Shown here: positions 476 through 13,028 of the stretch, one piece after another
Position numbering within the stretch: the first letter of the stretch is position 1
Layout: each line of letters opens with the position of its first letter
DNA from: Mucilaginibacter kameinonensis
GTDB lineage: Bacteria > Bacteroidota > Bacteroidia > Sphingobacteriales > Sphingobacteriaceae
Length of the DNA stretch: 64,000 nucleotides
Direction of reading: 5' to 3'
Assembly: GCF_003675385.1 (NCBI RefSeq)
Contig: NZ_RCWZ01000001.1
Span: 1,488,001 to 1,552,000 of the forward strand
Notes under the pieces: model-generated
Told to the model about the DNA's origin: nothing
The model's input: the letters and a program-made list of their open reading frames with translations, nothing else
Database searches by the model: none
Program-made: the position numbers and the translations under genes

Positions 476-571
476 ATGAACACTTTTTTTACCACCACCA
501 AAGTACTTCCTGAACACGCACAATTAATGCACGCTTCTCCAAAAGCATGTATGTGCAGTTGTTGTAAATAA
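476..571 (+). CDS. Cys-rich leader peptide, 31 aa
   Basis: A 31-codon ORF (ATG 476, TAA 569-571) begins MNTFFTTTKVLPEHAQLMHA and ends CMCSCCK, so four of the last seven residues are Cys and another is Met. The Cys codons are TGT, TGC, TGT, TGT. It is preceded by an A-rich stretch (aaaaaaacaagagtg) typical of Bacteroidota start regions. It lies directly behind a strong promoter match and ahead of an operon with sulfur-oxidation genes and a tRNA-Cys-like gene. Poly-Cys leader ORFs that sense charged tRNA-Cys are known in mycobacteria. By analogy this peptide probably works through its translation rather than as a stable product. No conserved domain is recognised. A secreted or metal-binding peptide is a less likely alternative. 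Confidence 0.65.
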   Translation: MNTFFTTTKVLPEHAQLMHASPKACMCSCCK

Positions 572-826: not shown

Positions 827-3800
827 ATGGAAATATTTATCCGTAAAAACACAACTGTACTTTCCAAATATATTTTCCTGCTTCTGTTCTTTTTCCCATT
901 TGCGGCAGTGGCCCAGCAGGAGCCGCCTGCAACCGTTAATTCCATTTTAAAAGGACGTGTATTTGATGCTGCCACCCGGGATGTACTTCCGGGGGCGGTA
1001 GTATCAATTAAAGGCACTACACACGCCGTTTCAACTAATGCCGAAGGCCGTTTTGATTTTGTAACCGGCCAGAAATTCCCTTATACATTAATTGTTCGTT
1101 TTATCGGTTATGATCAGCAGGAAATAGTTGTTAACGGCAGCCCTGTTGAAATTTACCTGAAGCCAATTCCGCAGCAGCTAAATGACGTAGTGGTAGTTGG
1201 GTATGGTACCAAAACCCGTAAAGACCTCATCAGCTCGGTATCAACCATAAAGGCCGATGAAGTAAAGAAAACTCCCGTTGCCAGCTTTGACGCGCAGTTA
1301 CAAGGTAAGGCATCCGGCGTACAGATCAATTCAAATACCGGTGTACCTGGCGATGGAATATTTATCCGCGTGCGTGGTACTACGTCAATCAACGCCAGTA
1401 ATGATCCGCTGTATATAGTTGATGGGGTGTTTTTAAATAACACCAGCTTGCAAACGGTAAACACAGGCGGCAGGGCTACATCGCCAATTGCCGACATTAA
1501 CCCGGATGACATCGAGAATATAGAGGTTTTAAAAGATGCCAGTGCTACAGCTATTTATGGCTCGCGTGGCGCTAATGGTGTTGTTATTGTTACTACCAAA
1601 CGCGGTAATTATAACAGCAGGCCTAAAATTAACTTCAATGTTTCGCAGGGTTTAGCCTGGCAGCCAAAAGGCAGGCTTTGGAAGTTGACAACCGGCCCTC
1701 AGCACGCCGAGATTGTAAATGAGTTTTACCGTAACTCTGAGGCTGATGCCATTGCGGCGGGTAACGCGGCGGGTATTAAAACTTATCAATATCAACCCTT
1801 CCGTGCAACTGACGATAACCCTACCGCTTCACCGGCACCAAGGGGCTTACCATCTCAGCAAAATACCTACGACCGTTTGAGCGAATTATTCCGCACAGGT
1901 AACCTGGCTAATTATGACCTGTCTTTAGAAGGTGGTTCAAAGGATACCAAATATTATATAGGGGCGGGTTATACTAAACAGCAGGCTGATATTAAGCCAA
2001 TTGATTTTAGTCGCCTTGGTTTTAAAGTAAACCTTGACCAGCGCATCAGCGATAGGGTACAGGTAGGTACAAGTAACAGCGTTTCACGTTCGTACCGTAA
2101 CCAGGCCCGCTCAGGCGATGGTCCGGCGGGTGGTTTGTTCCAGTCTGCTTTGCATACACCAACCTATCTGCCCGAAACCAATCCGGATGGTACACCTGCA
2201 CGCTACGCTGGCTTTGATAACCTGCAGGTGTTGATTGATAATTACAACGTACATACCACAAGCTTACGCTATATCGGCAATGTTTATGCTGATATTGAGA
2301 TTTTGAAAGGTTTGAAATTCCGCTCAAGCTGGAGTGTTGATTATAACAACTACAACGAATCTGAATACTGGAACGATAAAACGCAGTTAGGTGCATCGCC
2401 AACCAATGGTCTGGCTACATCGGCCATAACCCAAAGCACTGCCTGGATCAACGAACAAACCTTAAACTATCACCACCTGTTTGGCGAAAAACATACTTTG
2501 GATGTAGTTGCGGGTAACACACTGCAAAGCAATATTATACAGCTAACATCGGCACAGGGTACAGGTTTCCCTAACAACGCTTACACTGATATTTCATCAG
2601 CTTCAACCCGTACGGCCAACCAAACCTGGACAAAGGCTAACTTATCTTCATACTTCTCACGCATTTCATACAACTATGCCAGCAAGTATTATCTGGAGGT
2701 AAGTGCCCGTGCCGATGGTTCATCAAAATTCGGTGTCAATAATAAATGGGGATATTTCCCATCGGTAGGTGCCTCATGGCGTGCTAAGGAAGAAAGCTTT
2801 TTGAAAGATGTAAACTCAATCAGTGATCTTAAATTGCGTGCAAGCTATGGTGTTACCGGTAACCAGGCGGGTATCAACAACTTTGCGGCGCAGGGTTTAT
2901 GGAGCGGCGGTGCAGGTTATCCTGACAATACAACCGGAGGCGATAAAGCAGGTACCGCGCCGCAGCAGTTGGCTAATCCCAACCTGAAATGGGAGCGCAC
3001 CGCGCAGGCCAACGTAGGCTTCGACCTCGGTTTGCTGAACAACCACCTAAACCTGTCTGTCGATCTATATTCTAAACAAACCAGCGATGTATTGCTGCAA
3101 TTACCCGTTCCGGAGATTACCGGTTATAGCACTTATTACAGCAACGTAGGTAAAATAAGCAACAAGGGTTACGAGATAAGCATCAGCTCAAACAATATCA
3201 AAACAAAAGATTTTAGCTGGAGCAGCAGTTTCAATATCTCGGGTAACGTTAATAAAATTAAATCGCTGCCGGTACCAATTAACCAGTACAGCCGCGACTG
3301 GATCAGGATGCAGCAGGGCTACTCTATGTTCTCGTTCTGGATGTATAAACAGTTAGGTGTCGATCCGCAAACGGGCAACGCCATATTCGAGGACGTTAAC
3401 AAAGATGGTGTGATTAACACTGCGGATCGCCAGATAGTTGGCAATGCCCTGCCTAAGTACTTTGGCGGCTTAAGCAACACCATTACTTACAAAGGTTTTG
3501 ATGCCAGCTTTCTGTTCAGCTTTGAAGAAGGTAACAAAGTGCTTAACCTGAACCGCTTTTTTGGCGAAGGTGGCGGTACCCGCGATGCTAACCGTGTAAT
3601 ATTCGCCAGCCAATTGAACAGGTGGCAAAAGCCGGGCGATATTACTGATGTACCGCGCTTAACTGCCTATGGCAACAACTATACGCTTGAACAAAACAGC
3701 CGCTTCCTGGAAGACGGTTCCTTTATTCGCCTTAAATCATTGAGCCTGGGTTATACACTGCCAAAAGCACTTACTCAAAAAATTGACATCCAGTCGCTGC

Positions 3801-3958
3801 GCATTTACGTGGTGGGCAGTAACCTGCTGCTGTTCACCAAATACACAGGGCCCGATCCGGAAGCTAACGTAGGCGGCGGACAGGATGTGCAGGGTATTGA
3901 CCTGGGTACACCACCGCAACCACGCTCAGTTCAGTTAGGTGTAAATATTACTTTATAA
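827..3958 (+). CDS. SusC-family TonB-dependent outer membrane transporter
   Basis: A 1043-residue SusC/RagA-type receptor that would import a ligand across the outer membrane using TonB energy. A signal peptide ends near AVAQQ (residue ~30). A CarboxypepD_reg-like domain (~40-110) is followed by a TonB-box-like LNDVVVVGYGT, the plug domain (~120-235, with SINASNDPLYIVDGV) and a 22-strand barrel ending in PRSVQLGVNITL. There is no STN domain, so it is not of the sigma/anti-sigma signalling type. It is followed after 14 nt by its SusD partner. Here the pair heads an operon of sulfur genes rather than glycosidases, so the cargo may be a sulfur compound; this is inferred from context only. Confidence 0.92.
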   Translation: MEIFIRKNTTVLSKYIFLLLFFFPFAAVAQQEPPATVNSILKGRVFDAATRDVLPGAVVSIKGTTHAVSTNAEGRFDFVTGQKFPYTLIVRFIGYDQQEIVVNGSPVEIYLKPIPQQLNDVVVVGYGTKTRKDLISSVSTIKADEVKKTPVASFDAQLQGKASGVQINSNTGVPGDGIFIRVRGTTSINASNDPLYIVDGVFLNNTSLQTVNTGGRATSPIADINPDDIENIEVLKDASATAIYGSRGANGVVIVTTKRGNYNSRPKINFNVSQGLAWQPKGRLWKLTTGPQHAEIVNEFYRNSEADAIAAGNAAGIKTYQYQPFRATDDNPTASPAPRGLPSQQNTYDRLSELFRTGNLANYDLSLEGGSKDTKYYIGAGYTKQQADIKPIDFSRLGFKVNLDQRISDRVQVGTSNSVSRSYRNQARSGDGPAGGLFQSALHTPTYLPETNPDGTPARYAGFDNLQVLIDNYNVHTTSLRYIGNVYADIEILKGLKFRSSWSVDYNNYNESEYWNDKTQLGASPTNGLATSAITQSTAWINEQTLNYHHLFGEKHTLDVVAGNTLQSNIIQLTSAQGTGFPNNAYTDISSASTRTANQTWTKANLSSYFSRISYNYASKYYLEVSARADGSSKFGVNNKWGYFPSVGASWRAKEESFLKDVNSISDLKLRASYGVTGNQAGINNFAAQGLWSGGAGYPDNTTGGDKAGTAPQQLANPNLKWERTAQANVGFDLGLLNNHLNLSVDLYSKQTSDVLLQLPVPEITGYSTYYSNVGKISNKGYEISISSNNIKTKDFSWSSSFNISGNVNKIKSLPVPINQYSRDWIRMQQGYSMFSFWMYKQLGVDPQTGNAIFEDVNKDGVINTADRQIVGNALPKYFGGLSNTITYKGFDASFLFSFEEGNKVLNLNRFFGEGGGTRDANRVIFASQLNRWQKPGDITDVPRLTAYGNNYTLEQNSRFLEDGSFIRLKSLSLGYTLPKALTQKIDIQSLRIYVVGSNLLLFTKYTGPDPEANVGGGQDVQGIDLGTPPQPRSVQLGVNITL

Positions 3959-3972
3959 GGAGGGCAACGATC

Positions 3973-5328
3973 ATGAAATTACTTAAAACTTTAAAATATA
4001 CAATCCCGGTTCTGTCGCTTGTGACGCTGGCTTCCTGCAAAAAATTCCTGGAGGTTCAGCCGAAAGATTCGGTATCTGATTCACAAACCATTGTTGATCG
4101 AGCATCTGCCGAAACCGCGGTGCGCGGTATTTACAGGGCATTATCTGCCGATAACTACTATGGCGTAAACTTTGTTTCGGTAGGCTATTTATCAGGCGAT
4201 AATATCCAGTGGACAGGTTCGCAATCTATCGTGCAACAGTTTATTGACCATAATGTAAAGGCCGATAACGCCACGGTATCGGGTATTTGGCTGGCTATTT
4301 ACACAACCATAAACCGCGCAAACTATGTAATAGCCAAATTACCCGGCGTTACCGATGCTACCCTGACAACAGCCGAAAGAAACCAGCTGCTTGGGGAAGC
4401 GTACTTCATCCGGGCCTTATGCTACTTTGACCTTGCCCGTACCTGGGGTGGTGTACAGATAGTGACCACGCCAACCATATCGGCTACAGATAAAAATGGC
4501 ATCAAACGCAGCACGCTTGAGCAAACTTACGCACAGGTACTTAGCGACCTGAATACTGCCGAACCATTGTTGCCGCTACCAACTTCGCAAAACCCGGTAA
4601 GGGCCAATAAAGAAACAGTTTATGCCTTGAAGGCAAGGTACTACCTGTACCAAAAAGACTGGACTAACGCCGAAAACTATGCTACGCTGGTATTGGGCGA
4701 TACGCAGAATTATTCGCTGTTAAAGCCTTACAGCGCGTGGTTTGCCAACAATGCGGTAGGTACTAAAGAATCGGTGTTTGAACTGGCTTACAGTGCTACT
4801 TATACCAATGGTCACCGTGGGCAATGGCAGCCGCCTGCTAATAGCGGTACCCGCCAATGGGCGCCTAACGCCGCGTTTTTAGCATTGGTAAACGACGCTA
4901 CCATAGGAGGTAACCGGAGTGCTTTGGTGGCTAAAACATCTGCAGGTTTATGGTATGGCAACCTTTATTACCGCAGCCCGGCAACAGATCCGGCTTATGT
5001 CATCAGGATTGCCGAAGAATACCTGATCCGCTCGGAAGCGCGTGCACAGCTTAATAAGCTTGCCGATGCCCGGATTGATTTGAACGCTGTACGTGACCGC
5101 GCAGGCTTAACAGCAACAACAGCGGTTTCACAAGCCGATATTTTGCTGGCCATTGAAAACGAGCGCCGTATAGAGTTTGCTTTGGAAGGCCATCGCTGGT
5201 TTGATTTGGTGCGCACGGGAAGGGCAGCAGCCGTATTGGGCGTAACAGACGCCACGAAAAATATTTTGCCTATCCCGGTAGATCAGCTGAATGTTGACCC
5301 GGCGCTAACGCAGAATCCGGGTTATTAG
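3973..5328 (+). CDS. SusD/RagB-family surface lipoprotein
   Basis: A 451-residue SusD-like ligand-binding lipoprotein that caps the SusC barrel. The signal peptide has a lipobox (LVTLASC, Cys at ~22), then the TPR-rich body (ERNQLLGEAYFIRALCYFDLARTWGGV is the usual SusD helix, cited here as its key region ~135-160). The C-terminal SusD signature is ENERRIEFALEGHRWFDLVRTG, and the protein ends LTQNPGY like most family members. It lies 14 nt after the SusC gene. A tRNA-Cys-like gene begins 11 nt after its stop codon, inside the operon. Confidence 0.92.
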   Translation: MKLLKTLKYTIPVLSLVTLASCKKFLEVQPKDSVSDSQTIVDRASAETAVRGIYRALSADNYYGVNFVSVGYLSGDNIQWTGSQSIVQQFIDHNVKADNATVSGIWLAIYTTINRANYVIAKLPGVTDATLTTAERNQLLGEAYFIRALCYFDLARTWGGVQIVTTPTISATDKNGIKRSTLEQTYAQVLSDLNTAEPLLPLPTSQNPVRANKETVYALKARYYLYQKDWTNAENYATLVLGDTQNYSLLKPYSAWFANNAVGTKESVFELAYSATYTNGHRGQWQPPANSGTRQWAPNAAFLALVNDATIGGNRSALVAKTSAGLWYGNLYYRSPATDPAYVIRIAEEYLIRSEARAQLNKLADARIDLNAVRDRAGLTATTAVSQADILLAIENERRIEFALEGHRWFDLVRTGRAAAVLGVTDATKNILPIPVDQLNVDPALTQNPGY

Positions 5329-5339
5329 TAAGGACATAA

Positions 5340-5410
5340 AGCCGGGTGACTGAGTGGCTAAGTAGAGGTCTGCAAAACCTTGTACGGCAGTTCGAACCTG
5401 CCCCCGGCGT
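5340..5410 (+). tRNA. tRNA-Cys(GCA)-like gene inside the operon
   Basis: A complete cloverleaf can be drawn. The acceptor stem pairs G5341-G5346 with C5403-C5408 (6 G/C pairs), with an A5340.G5409 mismatch at 1:72. U8 is 5347. The D stem is ACT/AGT (5349-5351, 5361-5363) with GG at 5356-5357. The anticodon stem is GAGGT/ACCTT (5365-5369, 5377-5381) with loop CTGCAAA and anticodon GCA at 5372-5374. The variable loop is 4 nt, the T stem GGCAG/CTGCC, the T loop TTCGAAC (5391-5397) and the discriminator T5410. U73 and GCA are identity elements of tRNA-Cys. Position 21 is U instead of the near-universal A. CCA is not encoded. It lies between susD (stop 5328) and a DoxX-like gene (start 5440) on the same strand, so it would be cut from the operon mRNA. 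It may be a dedicated or regulatory tRNA-Cys rather than the housekeeping one. Confidence 0.82.
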
Positions 5411-5439
5411 CTTCTAAATCAATTTAAAAACATAAAACA

Positions 5440-6801
5440 ATGAGCACATTAACCACCAACCAAACCAAATGGAAGGAATACGAAAAGGGGGCTTTTCGGT
5501 TCTTCTTCATTTACTTTGTGCTGCAGGCCCTTCCGCTTGACTGGAAGTACTTCGGCAACCTGTTCCGCATTCAGTGGGGCAGCCTCGGCTTTGGCGATAT
5601 TTTTTACATCAGTCGTTACACGCCGCAATTTATATCTGGCAGCAGTACACCCGGCACATGGGGCATAGGTACCCTTGCCGATTGGGCATTCATAGCCGGC
5701 ATTGCATTGATAGGCGCTATCGTTTGGAGTATCCGCGATAAAAAGAGCGAAAACTATAATAAGTTGTACTACTGGTTAAGGGTGATTTTGCGTTACCGCC
5801 TGGCTATCGGAATCATCGCTTATGGTTTTATCAAGTTCTTTCCTTTACAATCACCGCTGCCATCTATCAGTAACCTGAACACATCTTATGGTGATTTTGA
5901 CCGTTGGAAACTTTTCTCGTTAAGCCTGGGTATAGTGCCGGGTTATGAATCGTTTTTGGGTTTGGTGGAGATAATAGTTGGCGTATTGCTGCTGTTCCGT
6001 AAAACCGCGACACTCGGTGCTATCATTATCCTGGTATTTACGGGTAATGTGTTCATATCCAATATAGCTTATGATGGCGGCGAAGCAATTTACGCGCTTT
6101 ACCTCATCAACATTGCTTTATTCCTTACGGTTTACGATATCCAACGTATTTATAACCTGGTAGCCCTGCGTAAACCAACGGCACCAAATACAGTGAAAAT
6201 TTCATTAAACGGGCAATGGCGTACATCACGTTTGGTGTTAAAAAGCCTGTTTATTTTCTTTTTCGTGTTTCTGTACGGATATAAAACTTACGCGGCTTAT
6301 CATCATGATATCTATCAATACCCAAAAGCTAAAGGTTTAGCCGGTGCAGCAGGTTTATATAATGTGAGCGATTTCAGGATCAATAGCAAACAATTGCCTT
6401 ACTCACAAACAGATACCAGTCGTTGGAACGATGTTGTTTTTGAAAAATGGAATACCATCAGCATAGGTTCATTAAAAAGATATAAAGCCGATACCGCTAC
6501 CACCGAAGAAATCAGCAGGAACAACGATGATCGTAAATATGAACTTAACGGTACAACCGGCAGGGCCTATTACAGCTATGTGGCCGATACCGTAAAACAG
6601 CTTTTGCTGCTCAAAAATAGGAACAGTAATTACAAGGCTGATCAGTTTACGCTGCTTTATACCAAACCTGAAAACGGCACTATTATCCTGACAGGTGTTG
6701 ATCATAACAAGGACTCTGTTTATGTGCAGCTGGACAGGATTAACAAAAAATACCTGCTGCAGGAAGCAGCCCAGGGCAGGAGCAAGGCACTTAAACTATA
6801 A
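5440..6801 (+). CDS. DoxX/DoxD-like membrane protein with C-terminal domain (copy 1)
   Basis: A 453-residue membrane protein. The N-terminal part (~20-270) has 6-8 hydrophobic segments with the DoxX-type pattern YYWLRVILRYRLAIGI, then GLVEIIVGVLLLFRKTATLG and IAYDGGEAIYA. The C-terminal ~180 residues form a soluble domain (YNVSDFRINSKQLPY, FEKWNTISIG, ILTGVDHNKDSVYVQLDRI). DoxD is the small subunit of archaeal thiosulfate:quinone oxidoreductase and DoxX proteins are linked to sulfur or redox stress, so a quinone-linked sulfur role is plausible; the family name alone does not prove an enzyme. It begins 29 nt after the tRNA and is a tandem paralogue of the next gene (27 nt away). Confidence 0.7.
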   Translation: MSTLTTNQTKWKEYEKGAFRFFFIYFVLQALPLDWKYFGNLFRIQWGSLGFGDIFYISRYTPQFISGSSTPGTWGIGTLADWAFIAGIALIGAIVWSIRDKKSENYNKLYYWLRVILRYRLAIGIIAYGFIKFFPLQSPLPSISNLNTSYGDFDRWKLFSLSLGIVPGYESFLGLVEIIVGVLLLFRKTATLGAIIILVFTGNVFISNIAYDGGEAIYALYLINIALFLTVYDIQRIYNLVALRKPTAPNTVKISLNGQWRTSRLVLKSLFIFFFVFLYGYKTYAAYHHDIYQYPKAKGLAGAAGLYNVSDFRINSKQLPYSQTDTSRWNDVVFEKWNTISIGSLKRYKADTATTEEISRNNDDRKYELNGTTGRAYYSYVADTVKQLLLLKNRNSNYKADQFTLLYTKPENGTIILTGVDHNKDSVYVQLDRINKKYLLQEAAQGRSKALKL

Positions 6802-6828: not shown

Positions 6829-8445
6829 ATGGCAACAACAGTAATAAACCCCGACACCGAACAGGTGGGCAATGTTGTCCCGGAAAGCAAAGCCCGGCAA
6901 GCTGCCCCAGTAACTGATACCGGCGCACAGAAGGAATGGACTGCTACCCAGCGTGTAGCTTTTCGTATCGCTTTCATCTTTTTCATTATCATGTGTATCC
7001 CAACCACTGCCGAGTGGTGGAATAACCTGGTAACCATCAATTGGTTCCATCTGCATTACCGCGACTTGTATGACATAGCGCGGTTTTCGCCAAGCATTTA
7101 CAAATTTCAAACCCCGGCATATAACCTGTTAGGCTATATTGATTGGGTTGAAGCGCTTGCTATTGGTATCGTAGGCGGTCTGATCTGGACTGCGTTTGAT
7201 AACAAAAACAAGCAATATCATAACCTGTATTACTGGCTGCGCGTGGTGGTGCGGTACAGGGCAGGTATAGGCATAATCGGGTTCGGCTTTACAAAGCTGT
7301 TCCCGGTTCAAATGCCTTATCCTTCATTAGGTGTACTTAACACGCATTTCGGCGATCTGACAGCGCAAAAGATCTACTGGCTTTCGGTAGGCATTGTGCC
7401 CTGGTACCAGGTGTTTGCCGGTGTTGTGGAGCTGGCTGCGGGCACCATGCTTTTCTTTCGCAAAACCACCACTTTTGGCGCGGTGTTGCTATTGGGAGCT
7501 TTGGGCGATATCACTTATGTAAACTTTGCCTATGATGGCGGAGTTCATGTGTATGCCTCATATTTTGTATTGTTCTCGGCGTTTTTATTATGGTACGATA
7601 TTGTGCCGGTTTATAACCTGCTTATCAAAGAGCGCTTTACCGTTCCTCCGGTTTTGATCCCGGAAATTAACCAGAAATGGCTTATCGTTACACGCATCGT
7701 TTTAAAGACTGGTACTGTTGGCATATTCCTGGTTTGGCTGTACTATTTGCAGTATGTAAACTTTAAATATGATCCCTATAAGCAACCATCTACAAGCGGC
7801 GTAAAACAATTACGGGGTAATTATAATGTGAGTGAATTTAAACTCAACGGGCAGGATATCCCTTATTCTCCTTTAGATTCGGTGCGCTGGCAAGGGGTAA
7901 CGTTCGAGAAATGGTCTTCCTTAACCTTTAATATTAATAAGCCATTAAATCTCGACTTATCTAATGGTGGTGGTGCCGCTATGCGCGATATCAACCGTAA
8001 CTTCGAGCTTACAGGCGTAGCCGGAGGTAAAAGGGTATTTTATTACGATGCCGATACCGTGAACAAGGTGCTTTACCTACAGGATAAACTGCCCGAGTTT
8101 ACCAAACGCAAAGGCAGGCGTGGTAATCGCGGCGGAGAGAAAGCAGGCGATAATAAATTAGCAAAACCATTTATCCCTGCCGAAGCAAAGGCTAACATCC
8201 GCAATGAAGTAACGGCTATTGATCCGGCGGCACAATCAACCCGCCGGGAGCGTGGTGTGCCCGAAGAGCTAAAAGATAAACGTAAACGTGCGCACATGGT
8301 GTTAAGTTACAACGCAGATGCAACGGGATCGCACATTGTGTTGACCGGCAAGGACGACAAGAAAAATGATGTGTATATTGTGCTTGACCGCGTAAACCGT
8401 CCATACGCGCTTACCGATAGCAAATTGGTGGCGGGCAAATACTAA
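6829..8445 (+). CDS. DoxX/DoxD-like membrane protein with C-terminal domain (copy 2)
   Basis: A 538-residue paralogue of the preceding gene, with the same membrane layout (YYWLRVVVRYRAGIGIIGFGF, GVVELAAGTMLFFRKTTTFG, FAYDGGVHVYASYF) and the same C-terminal domain (YNVSEFKLNGQDIPY, FEKWSSLTFN, IVLTGKDDKKNDVYIVLDRV). It differs by an N-terminal extension of ~30 residues and a basic insertion of about 60 residues in the C-terminal domain (~residues 425-485, rich in Arg, Lys, Gly and Glu). The pair probably arose by tandem duplication and may form a heteromer. A role in moving electrons from a sulfur substrate to quinone is inferred from the DoxD relationship and from neighbouring YeiH, cytochrome and SoxC-like genes. 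Confidence 0.68.
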   Translation: MATTVINPDTEQVGNVVPESKARQAAPVTDTGAQKEWTATQRVAFRIAFIFFIIMCIPTTAEWWNNLVTINWFHLHYRDLYDIARFSPSIYKFQTPAYNLLGYIDWVEALAIGIVGGLIWTAFDNKNKQYHNLYYWLRVVVRYRAGIGIIGFGFTKLFPVQMPYPSLGVLNTHFGDLTAQKIYWLSVGIVPWYQVFAGVVELAAGTMLFFRKTTTFGAVLLLGALGDITYVNFAYDGGVHVYASYFVLFSAFLLWYDIVPVYNLLIKERFTVPPVLIPEINQKWLIVTRIVLKTGTVGIFLVWLYYLQYVNFKYDPYKQPSTSGVKQLRGNYNVSEFKLNGQDIPYSPLDSVRWQGVTFEKWSSLTFNINKPLNLDLSNGGGAAMRDINRNFELTGVAGGKRVFYYDADTVNKVLYLQDKLPEFTKRKGRRGNRGGEKAGDNKLAKPFIPAEAKANIRNEVTAIDPAAQSTRRERGVPEELKDKRKRAHMVLSYNADATGSHIVLTGKDDKKNDVYIVLDRVNRPYALTDSKLVAGKY

Positions 8446-8458
8446 AAACAGATACCAG

Positions 8459-9904
8459 ATGAAACCGGAAAAACGTGATTATGATGCAGTGATAGTAGGC
8501 TCGGGGCCAAACGGCCTTGCAGCAGCCATATTATTGCAGCAGCATGGGCTTTCGGTTTTATTGCTGGAAGGGAAGGACAAAATAGGCGGCGGCTTACGCA
8601 CCGAAGAACTTACGCTGCCCGGTTTTAAACATGACGTTTGCTCGGCAATTCATCCGCTGGCTGCCGGATCGCCATTTTTTGAAAAGCTGCCCCTGCATGA
8701 GCACGGCCTGGAATATATTTATCCGGAGGTTGCGGCGGCGCACCCCTTTGATAACGGGACAGCCGCGGTACTCAAAAAATCGATCATTGAAACTGCCGAT
8801 TTGCTTGGCGAGGATAGGGATGCCTATATTAAACTGATGGCGCACCTGGTAAAATCATGGCCGGGTTTGGCTGCTGACGTATTAGGACCGCTTACGTTTC
8901 CGAAACACCCGGTTGATCTGGCAATTTTTGGACTGGATGCACTGACATCATCAACTCACCTCGCCAAAAAGTTTAAAACCGAAGAGGCCAAAGGGCTTTT
9001 GGCAGGTATGGCCGCGCATAGTATTCAGCCATTAACCAACCTTACTACATCGGCTATTGCTTTGGTGTTGATGGCTAACGGGCATTTAAAAGGCTGGCCG
9101 GTACCTAAAGGAGGCTCTGTAAAAATAGCGGATGCGCTGGCATCGTATTTTATTTCGATTGGAGGAAAGATTGAAACCAATACCTATATCACCGCTTTTG
9201 ATCAGCTGCCATCGGCTAACGCGGTTTTGTTTGATGTTACGCCTAAACAACTGCTGCAAATTGCCGGGCATAAGTTTTCATCGCTGTATAAATGGCAATT
9301 GGAACGGTATCGTTACGGCATGGGCGTTTTTAAGGTAGACTGGGCGCTTGACGACGTTGTGCCATTTAAGGCAGAAGGGGCAAAACAAGCCGGAACGGTA
9401 CATATTGGCGGCACGTTAAACGAAATCGCAATTGGCGAACAACAGATCTGGGAGGGTTTGCATCCTGAAAAGCCATTTGTTTTATTGGCCCAGCAAAGCC
9501 TTTTTGACAATACCCGTGCACCCGAAGGTAAACATACGGCCTGGGCTTACTGCCATGTCCCTAACGGATCAAATAAGGATATGACAGATATCATCGAGAA
9601 ACAGGTGGAACGGTTCGCTCCCGGTTTTCAGGACCGCATTATTGGCAGGCATACCTTTAATACCCGGCAATTGGAGAATTATAATCCTAACTACATTGGC
9701 GGAGATATCAATGGTGGCGTCATCGACATTGGCCAGTTATTTACCAGGCCGGTTTTGCGGCGCTCGCCTTATCGTACATCGGCAAAGGGAATTTATATCT
9801 GTTCGTCATCTACACCTCCGGGCGGGGGGGTACACGGCATGTGTGGCTATCATTCGGCCAAACGCGCGCTAAAAGATGTTTTTAACATCAGCATAAAATC
9901 ATAA
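8459..9904 (+). CDS. FAD-dependent oxidoreductase, phytoene desaturase-like
   Basis: A 481-residue flavoprotein. The N-terminal Rossmann motif is GSGPNG (residues 14-19), followed by the acidic strand end (LLLEGKDKIGGGLRTEE) typical of the CrtI/amine-oxidase superfamily. The C-terminal FAD-binding segment is GIYICSSSTPPGGGVHGMCGYHSA. Proteins of this group are often labelled phytoene dehydrogenase, but no other carotenoid gene is nearby. It begins 13 nt after the second DoxX gene and precedes a YeiH exporter, so a redox function on a sulfur or organic co-substrate of the operon is more likely. The substrate is unknown. Confidence 0.8.
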   Translation: MKPEKRDYDAVIVGSGPNGLAAAILLQQHGLSVLLLEGKDKIGGGLRTEELTLPGFKHDVCSAIHPLAAGSPFFEKLPLHEHGLEYIYPEVAAAHPFDNGTAAVLKKSIIETADLLGEDRDAYIKLMAHLVKSWPGLAADVLGPLTFPKHPVDLAIFGLDALTSSTHLAKKFKTEEAKGLLAGMAAHSIQPLTNLTTSAIALVLMANGHLKGWPVPKGGSVKIADALASYFISIGGKIETNTYITAFDQLPSANAVLFDVTPKQLLQIAGHKFSSLYKWQLERYRYGMGVFKVDWALDDVVPFKAEGAKQAGTVHIGGTLNEIAIGEQQIWEGLHPEKPFVLLAQQSLFDNTRAPEGKHTAWAYCHVPNGSNKDMTDIIEKQVERFAPGFQDRIIGRHTFNTRQLENYNPNYIGGDINGGVIDIGQLFTRPVLRRSPYRTSAKGIYICSSSTPPGGGVHGMCGYHSAKRALKDVFNISIKS

Positions 9905-9932: not shown

Positions 9933-11189
9933 ATGTCAACCACCACTACTAAACTAACCCTGCATGAAGACTGGGCAGTAGTTATTTTAGGTTCTTTGAT
10001 CATTATCCTGTCGCTGGCAGGCCTGCTTTTACCTGTACCCTCTTTCGGCTGGAAAACCGGTGCCGATTTAACCGGAACTGTACTGGGTTCGGCAAACCTT
10101 GTTAAAATACTTTTACAATTTGTTTTTGTAGCCATTATTGGCGGTATAGGCGCATTTATAACCGGCAAATCTGTTAAAAATTATGCTTTAGGCTTTCCAC
10201 TGGTTTATGTGGTTACTATACTTGCGCTTGTGCTTGCTGGAAGCAGCCAGGCTAAATCGCTTAACCTTGAGGCTGTAATATTCAGTTTGGTTTTGGGTTT
10301 GCTCATCAGCAATTTTATTAAACTACCGGAATGGTTAAAGTCATCACTTTCAACTGAGTTGTTTGTAAAAGTAGGCCTGGTATTGTTAGGTACCAGCGTA
10401 ATTTTTGGCGATATTTTAAAAGCAGGTTCGTTAGGTTTGATACAAGCTTTACTGGTTGTAACCTCTGTTTGGTACTTTGCTTACTGGACTTGCAAAAAGC
10501 TTAAGGTTGATGACGAAATGGCCATGATGATATCAAGCGCGGTATCCATTTGTGGTGTATCAGCGGCCATAGCCACAGCGGGTGCTATCAAAGGCGATTC
10601 AAAAAAGCTATCGTATGTAATATCGATGGTGTTGATCACGGCTATCCCGATGATGATCTTCATGCCCATCATCGCCCATTACTTCAAATTTTCGGAACCG
10701 GTAACCGGCGCCTGGCTGGGTGGCAGTATCGACACTACCGGCGCGGTTGTAGCTTCAGGATCATTAGTAGGTGAGGTAGCCCTGAAGATTAGTACCATTG
10801 TTAAATTCTCACAAAATGTGTTGCTTGGTTTGGCAGCTTTTGCTATCTCTATTTACTGGACTTACACCAAACACCCATCGGCAAGTGATAAAGAAACCAA
10901 ACCAACACTTAAAGTGATCTGGGAGCGTTTTCCAAAATTTGTGTTGGGTTTTATAGGTGCATCGTTGCTGTTTTCTTTCTTTCTGCCACCATCGGCTGCT
11001 GCTACGGTTAAGGATAGTTTGAAGAACTTGCAGGGACTATGGTTTGCCCTCGCCTTTACCAGTATTGGCCTGGAAACCAACTTTGCCGATCTGTTTAACC
11101 GGAACAGCAAAAAGCCGTTATACGCGTTCCTGATAGCACAAACCTTTAATATTTTCATTACGCTGGTTATAGCGCTGATATTATTCTAA
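9933..11189 (+). CDS. YeiH family putative sulfate/sulfite exporter
   Basis: A 418-residue inner membrane protein of the YeiH/UPF0324 family with about 11 hydrophobic segments. Family hallmarks are VGLVLLGTSVIFGDILKAG, the glycine/alanine-rich SSAVSICGVSAAIATAGAIK and GAWLGGSIDTTGAVVASGSL, and the C-terminal FALAFTSIGLETNFADL. YeiH proteins are repeatedly found with sulfonate and sulfite metabolism and are annotated as putative sulfate exporters. Here it lies 28 nt after the flavoprotein and 13 nt before a cytochrome c / SoxC-like pair. A role in exporting sulfite or sulfate made by the operon fits. Transport has not been shown for this protein. Confidence 0.88.
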   Translation: MSTTTTKLTLHEDWAVVILGSLIIILSLAGLLLPVPSFGWKTGADLTGTVLGSANLVKILLQFVFVAIIGGIGAFITGKSVKNYALGFPLVYVVTILALVLAGSSQAKSLNLEAVIFSLVLGLLISNFIKLPEWLKSSLSTELFVKVGLVLLGTSVIFGDILKAGSLGLIQALLVVTSVWYFAYWTCKKLKVDDEMAMMISSAVSICGVSAAIATAGAIKGDSKKLSYVISMVLITAIPMMIFMPIIAHYFKFSEPVTGAWLGGSIDTTGAVVASGSLVGEVALKISTIVKFSQNVLLGLAAFAISIYWTYTKHPSASDKETKPTLKVIWERFPKFVLGFIGASLLFSFFLPPSAAATVKDSLKNLQGLWFALAFTSIGLETNFADLFNRNSKKPLYAFLIAQTFNIFITLVIALILF

Positions 11190-11202: not shown

Positions 11203-11787
11203 ATGCTTAAAAAGTTAAAGCTAAGGCGAAGCCATGCCCTGATTTTCGGGGGGATCACCATAATTGGGGTGGTGATCTGGCTTTGGCTTTCTTATCAAAA
11301 TAAGCAAAAATGGCCCGAAACATTTGGTTATGGCAAGACTGCCACCCAACAGGATATAACCAAATTGGATATTGATATACGTCCGGATGGTAAAGGCTTA
11401 CCATCGGGGAGTGGCAATGTGGCCGAAGGGGCGGTAATTTACACCAATAAATGCGCAGCGTGTCACGGGGCAGATGGTAAGGAGATTAAAGGCGTGAAGT
11501 TGCCCGGTCCGCCATTAGTGGTGGGCGGTGGTAAAACCAAAACTATAGGTAATTACTGGCCTTACGCCACTACTTTGTTTGATTATGTACGCCGGGCCAT
11601 GCCTTATAACGCGCCAGGTTCGCTTACTGATGATGAAGTATACAGCCTTTGCGCCTGGCTGCTGAATGAAAATAAGATCATTAAAGCCAATCAAATAATG
11701 AATGCCCGTACGCTATCTAAAGTAGAGATGCCGGCACAAAAACTTTTTATTGTTGATGACCGCAAGGGCGGCCCGGAAGTGAAATGA
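11203..11787 (+). CDS. Membrane-anchored c-type cytochrome
   Basis: A 194-residue monoheme cytochrome c. One N-terminal membrane segment (ALIFGGITIIGVVIWLWL, ~12-29) anchors a periplasmic domain with the heme motif CAACH (84-88) and a probable axial Met133 in RAMPYNAPG. Its stop overlaps the start of the SoxC-like gene by 4 nt (ATGA), indicating translational coupling. SoxC/SoxD and SorA/SorB pairs likewise combine a molybdenum sulfite/sulfane dehydrogenase with a c-type cytochrome, so this protein is probably the electron acceptor of the next gene product, passing electrons to the respiratory chain. Confidence 0.9.
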   Translation: MLKKLKLRRSHALIFGGITIIGVVIWLWLSYQNKQKWPETFGYGKTATQQDITKLDIDIRPDGKGLPSGSGNVAEGAVIYTNKCAACHGADGKEIKGVKLPGPPLVVGGGKTKTIGNYWPYATTLFDYVRRAMPYNAPGSLTDDEVYSLCAWLLNENKIIKANQIMNARTLSKVEMPAQKLFIVDDRKGGPEVK

Positions 11788-13028
11788 GTATGGAACAGCA
11801 GGACAAGCCGGTAAAAACAACCGAAAAGAAAATAAGTCGCCGTACTTTGCTGGGCGGTGCTCTGGCTACGGCTATTTTGCCGGTAACCTCGGTATTTGCA
11901 AAATATATCCAGGTGGGAGTACCTGCGATTCCCGATCCTACAAAGCAGCCCGGTCCGCTGCCGGGAAAGGTTGGCACACGTTCGCCGTTTGAAAGCCCGG
12001 TTAAGAAGCCATCGGATATTTCATCACGTACACCGCTGCAGGATCTGTACAGTACCATTACCCCATCCGATCTGCATTTTGAACGGCACCATGCTGGTGT
12101 GCCTTCCATCGACCCAAATCAATATGAGTTATTGATACACGGGATGGTGGAGCGGCCCATGAAGTTTAGCCTGCATGACTTGAAACGTTTTCCATCCGTA
12201 ACCCGCACCTGTTTTATTGAATGTGCTGGCAATTTCCGCACGGGTAAAGAGGATATGACCGTACAGGAGATCCTTGGCCTCACCAGTCAAAGCGAATGGA
12301 CGGGCGTGATGCTTTCAACCCTGTTTCGTGAACTGGGCGTGAATCCTAAAGCCACCTGGTTTTTAGCTGAAGGCGGTGATGCTGCCGTGCTTACCCGAAG
12401 CATCCCCATTCGTAAAGCCTGGGACGATGCCATGATCGTATACGCACAGAACGGCGAAGCCATTCGTCCGGAGCAAGGGTACCCTGCGCGCTTGCTTTTA
12501 CCCGGATGGGAGGGCAATACCAATGTAAAATGGTTACGACGGATAGAAATTTCTGACGCGCCATATTTTACTCGCGAGGAAACTTCAAAATATACCTACC
12601 CGGTAAAAGATAAGATCAGGATGTTCAGCTTTGAAATGGATGCCCGGTCTATCATCACCTACCCATCCTTCCCGCAAACGATTGAACGCGGCTGGATCGA
12701 AATTCGTGGTATAGCTTGGAGCGGCAGGGGAAAGGTGGTAAAGGTTGAAGTAAGTACCGATGCCGGTAAAAATTGGATTGAAGCCCGGCTACAGGGCCCG
12801 GTATTGGAAAAAGCGCATACCTATTTTCGCCATCTCTGGCATTGGGATGGCTCAGAAACAGAAATACTCAGTCGTGTTACCGACGAAACAGGCTATACCC
12901 AGCCTACTTTAAAACAACTCATCGACGCCCGTGGCAAAGATATAGGCGGTTACCACATGAATCCGGTAACAGCATGGCGCATTAAACGGGATGGAAATGT
13001 GGTTTTTAAACCGGAGAACCATAAGTAG
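11784..13028 (+). CDS. SoxC-like molybdopterin sulfite/sulfane dehydrogenase
   Basis: A 414-residue sulfite-oxidase-family protein. The N-terminus carries a Tat signal (SRRTLLGGALATAILP) for export as a folded cofactor enzyme. The molybdopterin domain contains RTCFIECAGNFRTG, in which Cys147 (ECAGN) corresponds to the Mo-ligating Cys of the family. The C-terminal Mo-oxidoreductase dimerisation domain contains IRGIAWSGRGKVVKVEVSTDAG and ends near MNPVTAWRI. The family transfers electrons from sulfite or protein-bound sulfane to cytochrome c, and the overlapping upstream gene is such a cytochrome. It is the last gene of the operon. Sulfite versus sulfane (SoxCD-type) specificity cannot be decided; no SoxXYZAB genes are present. 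Confidence 0.88.
   Translation: MSMEQQDKPVKTTEKKISRRTLLGGALATAILPVTSVFAKYIQVGVPAIPDPTKQPGPLPGKVGTRSPFESPVKKPSDISSRTPLQDLYSTITPSDLHFERHHAGVPSIDPNQYELLIHGMVERPMKFSLHDLKRFPSVTRTCFIECAGNFRTGKEDMTVQEILGLTSQSEWTGVMLSTLFRELGVNPKATWFLAEGGDAAVLTRSIPIRKAWDDAMIVYAQNGEAIRPEQGYPARLLLPGWEGNTNVKWLRRIEISDAPYFTREETSKYTYPVKDKIRMFSFEMDARSIITYPSFPQTIERGWIEIRGIAWSGRGKVVKVEVSTDAGKNWIEARLQGPVLEKAHTYFRHLWHWDGSETEILSRVTDETGYTQPTLKQLIDARGKDIGGYHMNPVTAWRIKRDGNVVFKPENHK

Follow-up and report, generated by a model that had tools for sequence, protein, structure and literature searches.

What is a lone tRNA gene doing between two protein genes of one operon? The stretch of the Mucilaginibacter kameinonensis genome considered here (the window, 64,000 nucleotides) carries a tRNA-Cys(GCA) gene at 5340–5410 on the forward strand, directly after a susD-like gene and directly before a gene for a DoxX-like membrane protein. 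An earlier reading made from the DNA alone (the sequence-only reading) proposed that this gene may be something other than the housekeeping tRNA: a dedicated sensor or reporter of cysteine charging, or a supplier of Cys-tRNA for a special use. Here we compare the gene, its operon and its relatives in other genomes.

Results

The tRNA-Cys gene

ARAGORN assigns 5340–5411 to tRNA-Cys(gca), and the Rfam tRNA model matches 5341–5408 with 44 bits (gathering cut-off 29); it is the sole tRNA found in the 64 kb. The gene starts 11 nt after the susD stop (5328) and ends 29 nt before the doxX1 ATG (5440), bearing out the cloverleaf, anticodon and gaps of the sequence-only reading. It shows a GCA anticodon, U73, a TTCGAAC T loop and a 3-bp D stem, with the CCA end incompletely encoded. 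U73 and GCA are identity elements for the cysteinyl-tRNA synthetase (CysRS). In place of the paired 1–72 of elongator tRNAs, it has A1·G72. Folded by itself, the tRNA is of ordinary stability (z −0.75).

Across 64 distinct relatives, the acceptor (2–71 to 7–66) and T stems are preserved through paired changes, which argues that the tRNA is more than a product of chance. Pair 3–70 is CG in 22, UA in 39 and UG in three, and pair 6–67 is GC in 30, CG in 25, UA in six and UG in three, with a single broken cell in these stems (at 4–69); this table leaves out three rows of a set of 67 distinct relatives, two of them (L215 and L229) with a paired A1–U72. Pairing is looser at the outer two positions of the anticodon stem, which are standard in 51/64 and 49/64 relatives, and 31–39 is U–A in 62/64. 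Within the set of 67, position 1 is A in 66 and U in one, while position 72 is G in 59, A in six and U in two; these counts are biased because the set was gathered partly by an A1/G72 pattern, a bias of which the tRNA set derived from DoxX1 proteins (see below) is free. GCA and U73 are unvarying in all 67. U33 is retained in 86 of 90 rows, the other four having C33.

The surrounding operon

The genes run, all on the forward strand, in the order leader ORF, susC, susD, tRNA-Cys, doxX1, doxX2, oxidoreductase, yeiH, cytochrome c and soxC. Pfam identifies the SusC-like TonB-dependent receptor (827–3958), the SusD-like lipoprotein (3973–5328), the FAD/NAD(P)-binding oxidoreductase (8459–9904) and the cytochrome c (11203–11787). 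DoxX1 (5440–6801), named a DoxX/SURF4-like membrane protein in the source annotation, has neither a Pfam nor an NCBIfam match; it is 98% identical to its counterpart in Mucilaginibacter endophyticus and 97% to that in M. gossypiicola. Its paralogue DoxX2 (6829–8445, 38% identical) likewise has no family match in Pfam or NCBIfam. The YeiH-like membrane protein (9933–11189) matches PF03601, with TIGR00698 under its cut-off, and the operon ends in a SoxC-type molybdopterin sulfite dehydrogenase (11784–13028; TIGR04555, 462 bits against a cut-off of 420). Searched with Pfam and NCBIfam, the operon proteins include no recognised enzyme that would use Cys-tRNA, and SepCysS and SepRS are absent from the matches. 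A literature search by the gene names of the SusCD-DoxX-SoxC operon found no paper.

Three of the encoded proteins are almost devoid of Cys and Met. Over the window and the best 80 of 261 loci matching doxX1 (82 SusC, 81 SusD and 81 DoxX1 copies), the median Cys+Met content is 0.23% for DoxX1, 0.29% for SusC and 0.44% for SusD, against 2.44% in 415 other ORFs of these loci. The DoxX1 of the window has no Cys and Met at its start only; its SusC has no Cys and scarcely any Met. The DoxX2 median is 0.89%, eight other SusC proteins in the same loci have 0.79%, and two control SusC proteins in the window have 1.25 and 1.63%. The later operon proteins are not sulfur-poor (medians of 2.94% for the oxidoreductase, 2.97% for SoxC and 3.37% for the cytochrome c). 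A sulfur-poor make-up is what would be expected of genes used under sulfur scarcity, and this operon of soil Bacteroidota is likely a sulfur-starvation operon. At four loci (L054, L056, L069 and L084), an extra peptidase S51 gene (cyanophycinase/peptidase E-like) lies between susD and the tRNA, a hint that the SusCD pair of the operon imports peptides.

A cysteine-rich leader precedes susC

A promoter-like pair, TTTG (416–419) and TATGTTTG (440–447), lies on the forward strand 28 nt upstream of the leader ATG; it was located by a TAnnTTTG scan and an alignment of close relatives, and its type is one we take to be the Bacteroidota promoter consensus. The leader ORF that follows (476–571, forward strand) encodes 31 residues ending in KACMCSCCK-stop, with four Cys among the last seven. 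Counting ORFs whose final eight residues include three or more Cys, up to 400 nt upstream of susC, such poly-Cys ORFs occur in 37 of 76 loci (the window included), compared with 0.4 expected from shuffles and none on the reverse strand. Besides the Cys run, the leader peptides have little in common. At L080, the leader ORF reads ATG TGC TGC TGC AAT TAA and is under the length required for the count.

Two further elements lie between the leader ORF and susC on the forward strand. One is a conserved hairpin, ACCGGCAAGGAAGCCTTGCCGGT (706–728), with changes on both sides at six of eight consensus pairs. The other is the 14-mer GTAACGCCAATCAC (751–764), about 75 nt upstream of susC, which by eye forms the loop of a second hairpin that the consensus fold does not contain. 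It has one match in the window against 0.01 expected and is found exactly in 23 of 264 loci; at L232 it precedes a different SusC, which has a tRNA-Cys and a TauE gene as neighbours. The hairpin and 14-mer together (706–764) are kept across genera, in part of L049–L119 and in L224 and L232. Rfam yielded no family at cut-off over this element. On the forward strand of the leader RNA, no clear terminator was seen and the conserved hairpin is not listed as terminator-like; the leader RNA folds no better than its shuffles (z 0.16). No SAM riboswitch was found ahead of the operon, with zero RF00162 matches in the window.

Poly-Cys leader ORFs are known from actinobacterial cys operons, as described in two papers (BMC Microbiol 2005, PMC1262725; PMC9094748). 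Like those of PMC1262725, the window leader is a brief reading frame that carries its Cys run close to the stop, precedes sulfur genes and has no evident intrinsic terminator. It differs from them in belonging to another phylum, in preceding a SusCD-DoxX-SoxC operon that contains a tRNA-Cys, and in being followed by the conserved hairpin and GTAACGCCAATCAC element before susC. Canestrari 2020 reportedly deals with such leaders in actinobacterial cys operons as well.

Other tRNA-Cys genes and CysRS of the genome

The 7.33 Mb genome contains three further tRNA-Cys genes, so the window copy is not the housekeeping tRNA, as had been proposed, and the possibility that it is the sole such copy is ruled out. 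The first, C8:836220, is a G1–C72 tRNA of 62.4 bits with TTTG/TATCTTTG upstream. The second, C6:1114582 (52.9 bits, 74–75 nt), lies within a Pro-Ile-Cys array, and the third, C8:920101, has A1·A72 and stands behind a SAM-I riboswitch. There is one CysRS gene, above its cut-off. Three features had been singled out as odd in the window tRNA; only A1·G72 proves distinctive, as the housekeeping C8:836220 has, by eye, U21 and a 3-bp D stem as well, which rules both out as oddities. Among 43 other tRNAs of the genome, drawn from at least 55 Rfam matches (150 candidates scored) and not including C8:920101, a non-standard 1–72 occurs only in two initiator-like tRNA-Met (U1·U72).

The tRNA-Cys of the Pro(TGG)-Ile(TAT)-Cys(GCA) array (L003 1414–1654, G000:C6) is divergent. 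The riboswitch-led copy (C8:920101–920339, L218) has C33 and U38 in its anticodon loop and may be decaying. A weak tRNA-like stretch of 36 bits (L047 ~7988–8055; G000:C9:329987–330054) lies near genes that by eye resemble mobilisation genes and is perhaps an attachment-site remnant.

The tRNA is linked to the operon in relatives

A doxX1 profile search matched 261 loci, the best 80 of which were analysed. In 14 of these 80, a tRNA-Cys stands directly before doxX1 (L049–L058, L069, L073, L084 and L115, all under Mucilaginibacter titles); 13 of these tRNAs have A·G at 1·72, and the remaining one has U·G. The same tRNA thus recurs in homologous operons, as the sequence-only reading had anticipated, and its absence from all of them is ruled out. 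It is absent before doxX1 in Mucilaginibacter-titled L059 and L083, and among the loci of other organisms within the best 80, only one of 64 (L080) has a tRNA-Cys match. Six tRNA genes of other kinds occur in the best 80 of 261 loci; all tRNAs found before doxX1 in these loci are tRNA-Cys. The tRNA appears decayed in L084 and L058.

A pattern search throughout Mucilaginibacter found the tRNA in 29 of 149 genomes, before doxX1 in 19 (the window genome included, and overlapping with the 14 loci above) and after a redoxin gene in 10. ARAGORN re-found 18 of the 19; 17 of them have A·G at 1·72, and the other has U·G. L224, also from Mucilaginibacter, has a tRNA-Cys before doxX1 as well.

In other genera of the family, the tRNA-Cys takes up other positions in or by this operon. 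It follows yeiH at 9–12 nt in L220, L221, L222, L307 and L308 and, as a G1·G72 copy, at 50 nt in L080. In L219 it stands ahead of susC, after the poly-Cys ORF, and in L223 a paired G1–C72 copy lies downstream of the whole operon. Since the positions vary across genera, the tRNA is linked to the operon rather than to one intergenic site. The poly-Cys leader accompanies the tRNA in 14/14 tRNA-bearing loci (window included) versus 23/62 others; as the species are related, the p value serves as no more than a guide. Conversely, the tRNA is missing before doxX1 in 23 of the 37 loci that have a poly-Cys leader, hence the leader does not depend on the tRNA.

A tRNA-Cys subfamily often found behind SAM riboswitches

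A 72-base pattern (at most one mismatch) finds A1-type copies in at least 62 of 399 family genomes and in six of 25 genera, a lower bound, since the window copy itself escapes the pattern. With two mismatches allowed, a sample of 395 genomes from across the class gave 17 hits outside the family, every one of them G1–C72, under a strict pattern that could pass over weaker relatives.

Members of the subfamily occur in several contexts: 8–21 nt after a peroxiredoxin gene, 9–12 nt after a NifS/IscS-like cysteine desulfurase gene, 55–112 nt after a redoxin gene (120–166 nt in three), or without a close upstream gene. The A1·G72 tRNA-Cys follows redoxin in L162, L171, L172, L178, L186, L187 and L301; several redoxin-type loci have a hairpin before the tRNA, and some have DUF4395 upstream. 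In L229, the tRNA-Cys lies 14 nt after a PhyH gene that itself follows a poly-Cys leader. This mini-operon, in which a poly-Cys leader, a PhyH dioxygenase gene and a tRNA-Cys follow one another, is seen at L229 8242–9314 and, with the G1–C72 copy, at L223 3629–4833.

A SAM-I (S-box) aptamer (RF00162), at the family cut-off, precedes many of these relatives. Where the tRNA has no close upstream gene, the aptamer lies 43–58 nt ahead of it in 23 of 29 copies, among them C8:920101 of the window genome and L234, from one other genus. It also precedes the peroxiredoxin gene in 14 of 15 peroxiredoxin-tRNA loci, the contig of the 15th stopping at the gene, and the cysteine desulfurase gene in all four desulfurase-tRNA loci. 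Aptamer core and tRNA-Cys were found in succession in 41 of 149 genomes of the genus, compared with none for the backwards pattern. For the stand-alone riboswitch-led tRNAs, folding yielded no clear terminator as expression platform. The tie to cysteine and sulfur drawn by the sequence-only reading is thus strengthened, by the poly-Cys leader at the window and by SAM riboswitches at its relatives elsewhere.

Rfam found no SAM-I aptamer at six loci without a close upstream gene (L215, L230, L233, L265, L277 and L303), four of which have a TAnnTTTG promoter. It likewise found none in the flanks examined of 11 redoxin-type loci, nor in 10 SusCD-, TauE- or PhyH-type loci, the scan having covered L080 alone among L049–L115. 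A poly-Cys ORF scan of eight redoxin loci gave one match, which lies inside the redoxin gene. TAnnTTTG occurs within 46 nt upstream of 16/17 G1–C72 rows versus 6/90 other tRNA-Cys rows, these 107 rows being chosen loci, mostly pattern-search hits and with some genomes repeated. This promoter was not found just before the window tRNA.

Discussion

A probable starvation copy of tRNA-Cys

We consider it probable, at roughly 60%, that the window tRNA is a sulfur-starvation copy of tRNA-Cys, many of whose subfamily relatives stand behind RNA leaders predicted to sense sulfur. The Cys-rich leader, the sulfur operon and the relatives behind SAM riboswitches together suggest that it is likely made mainly under sulfur shortage. 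S-box riboswitches turn genes off at high SAM, and production under sulfur shortage is the simplest account of one tRNA type behind two kinds of leader. Comparative sequence evidence supports calling it a tRNA-Cys paralogue under predicted sulfur-sensing RNA control, so that the word "dedicated" in the sensor proposal can be retained for a sulfur-tied paralogue; a sensing or reporting of charging by the tRNA itself stays conjectural, as does the special use proposed alongside it, with no enzyme that would use Cys-tRNA recognised in the operon.

The proposed course of events is as follows. When Cys-tRNA is scarce, ribosomes would stall at the leader's Cys codons and the operon would be expressed. 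RNase P and 3' nucleases would then release the tRNA from the polycistronic RNA, CCA would be added, and the sole CysRS would charge the tRNA through GCA and U73. The added tRNA-Cys may aid decoding of UGU and UGC at low cysteine, and the improved decoding would close the leader again, giving negative feedback.

No tight rule joins tRNA and leader: there are redoxin copies whose examined flanks contain neither leader, poly-Cys operons without the tRNA, two A1–U72 relatives and decayed copies. The ordinary sulfur content of the later operon proteins, the leader RNA with no clear terminator, the six riboswitch-free copies that have no close upstream gene, the single tRNA-Cys match in 64 loci outside Mucilaginibacter and the similarly placed G1–C72 copy of L223 also count against this reading.

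Relation to known systems

The SAM-I-led relatives depart from the usual SAM-I arrangement in that the product is a tRNA gene, which either comes straight after the aptamer or closes a peroxiredoxin or cysteine desulfurase mRNA. Unlike these, the gene in the window has a poly-Cys leader. We found no earlier report of riboswitch-controlled tRNA genes in the open-licence literature.

tRNA-Cys genes also occur in the SepRS/SepCysS operons of archaea and some bacteria, according to mBio 2017 (PMC5424206). The likeness is a tRNA-Cys inside an operon, sometimes with sulfur genes, and the difference is phosphoserine-based charging as opposed to the standard CysRS, above cut-off, of the window genome. 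An indirect cysteine system is disfavoured, the CysRS being single and above its cut-off and the operon proteins giving no SepCysS or SepRS match in Pfam or NCBIfam.

A third comparison is with the bacterial initiator tRNA, which lacks a standard 1–72 pair and has G2–C71 and C3–G70. The window tRNA likewise has no standard 1–72 pair and keeps G2–C71 and C3–G70. Unlike the initiator, with its CAU anticodon and three G–C anticodon-stem pairs, it has GCA and U31–A39. An open 1·72 end affects EF-Tu, transformylase and peptidyl-tRNA hydrolase. By analogy with the initiator, A1·G72 would be expected to loosen EF-Tu binding and protect against peptidyl-tRNA hydrolase.

Alternative explanations

This analogy leads to a bolder alternative to decoding with feedback, namely that the tRNA is charged and poorly passed to EF-Tu, so that it is withheld from elongation and acts as a reserve, sink or off-ribosome donor of cysteine in sulfur shortage. 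In its favour, the 1·72 end is open or at most wobble-paired throughout the 14 copies linked to doxX1 (from the best 80 of 261 loci), with the acceptor stem otherwise kept, a state seen among the 43 other tRNAs of the genome only in the two initiator-like tRNA-Met; GCA and U73 never vary in the 67 relatives, and C33 appears in 4/90 rows. Yet U33 is present in 86/90 rows, as in a decoding tRNA, the anticodon stem has no counterpart of the initiators' three G–C pairs (31–39 being U–A in 62/64), two relatives pair A1 with U72, and the operon has no identified enzyme that would use the Cys-tRNA. We therefore regard withholding from elongation as rather doubtful. Its fullest form, a Sphingobacteriaceae tRNA-Cys with an open end, switched on by SAM riboswitches or poly-Cys leaders, withheld from elongation and with its scarce cysteine reserved for a use or signal of its own, is a tentative possibility; if true, it would be the first tRNA to have its gene under direct riboswitch control.

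It is quite improbable that a tRNA-Cys paralogue was inserted here by chance and retained as a harmless read-through extra. The single tRNA-Cys match among 64 homologous loci outside Mucilaginibacter (within the best 80 of 261) and the decayed look of two loci would fit such an origin, but its repeated occurrence with sulfur genes and sulfur-sensing leaders, at several positions and in more than one genus, and the preservation of the stems by paired changes speak against it.

Least probable of all is that the tRNA serves as an mRNA processing site, at which RNase P and 3' nucleases separate the susCD mRNA from the doxX part and the amino acid is incidental: its close spacing (11 nt from susD, 29 nt from doxX1) and the hairpins that precede it in several loci, seen by eye at L069, L073 and L115, would suit this role, but in other genera the tRNA lies at the operon end or in the leader with nothing similar to separate, the tRNAs found before doxX1 in the best 80 of 261 loci are solely tRNA-Cys, and relatives stand alone behind riboswitches.

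Implications

tRNA genes are usually viewed as controlled by growth rate and not by single metabolites. Here, several arrangements tie a single tRNA-Cys subfamily to SAM-riboswitch or Cys-codon leaders. This tie opens a direct test of whether bacteria tune one isoacceptor to how much of its amino acid is available, and another of the role that an unpaired 1·72 end may have in a non-initiator tRNA.
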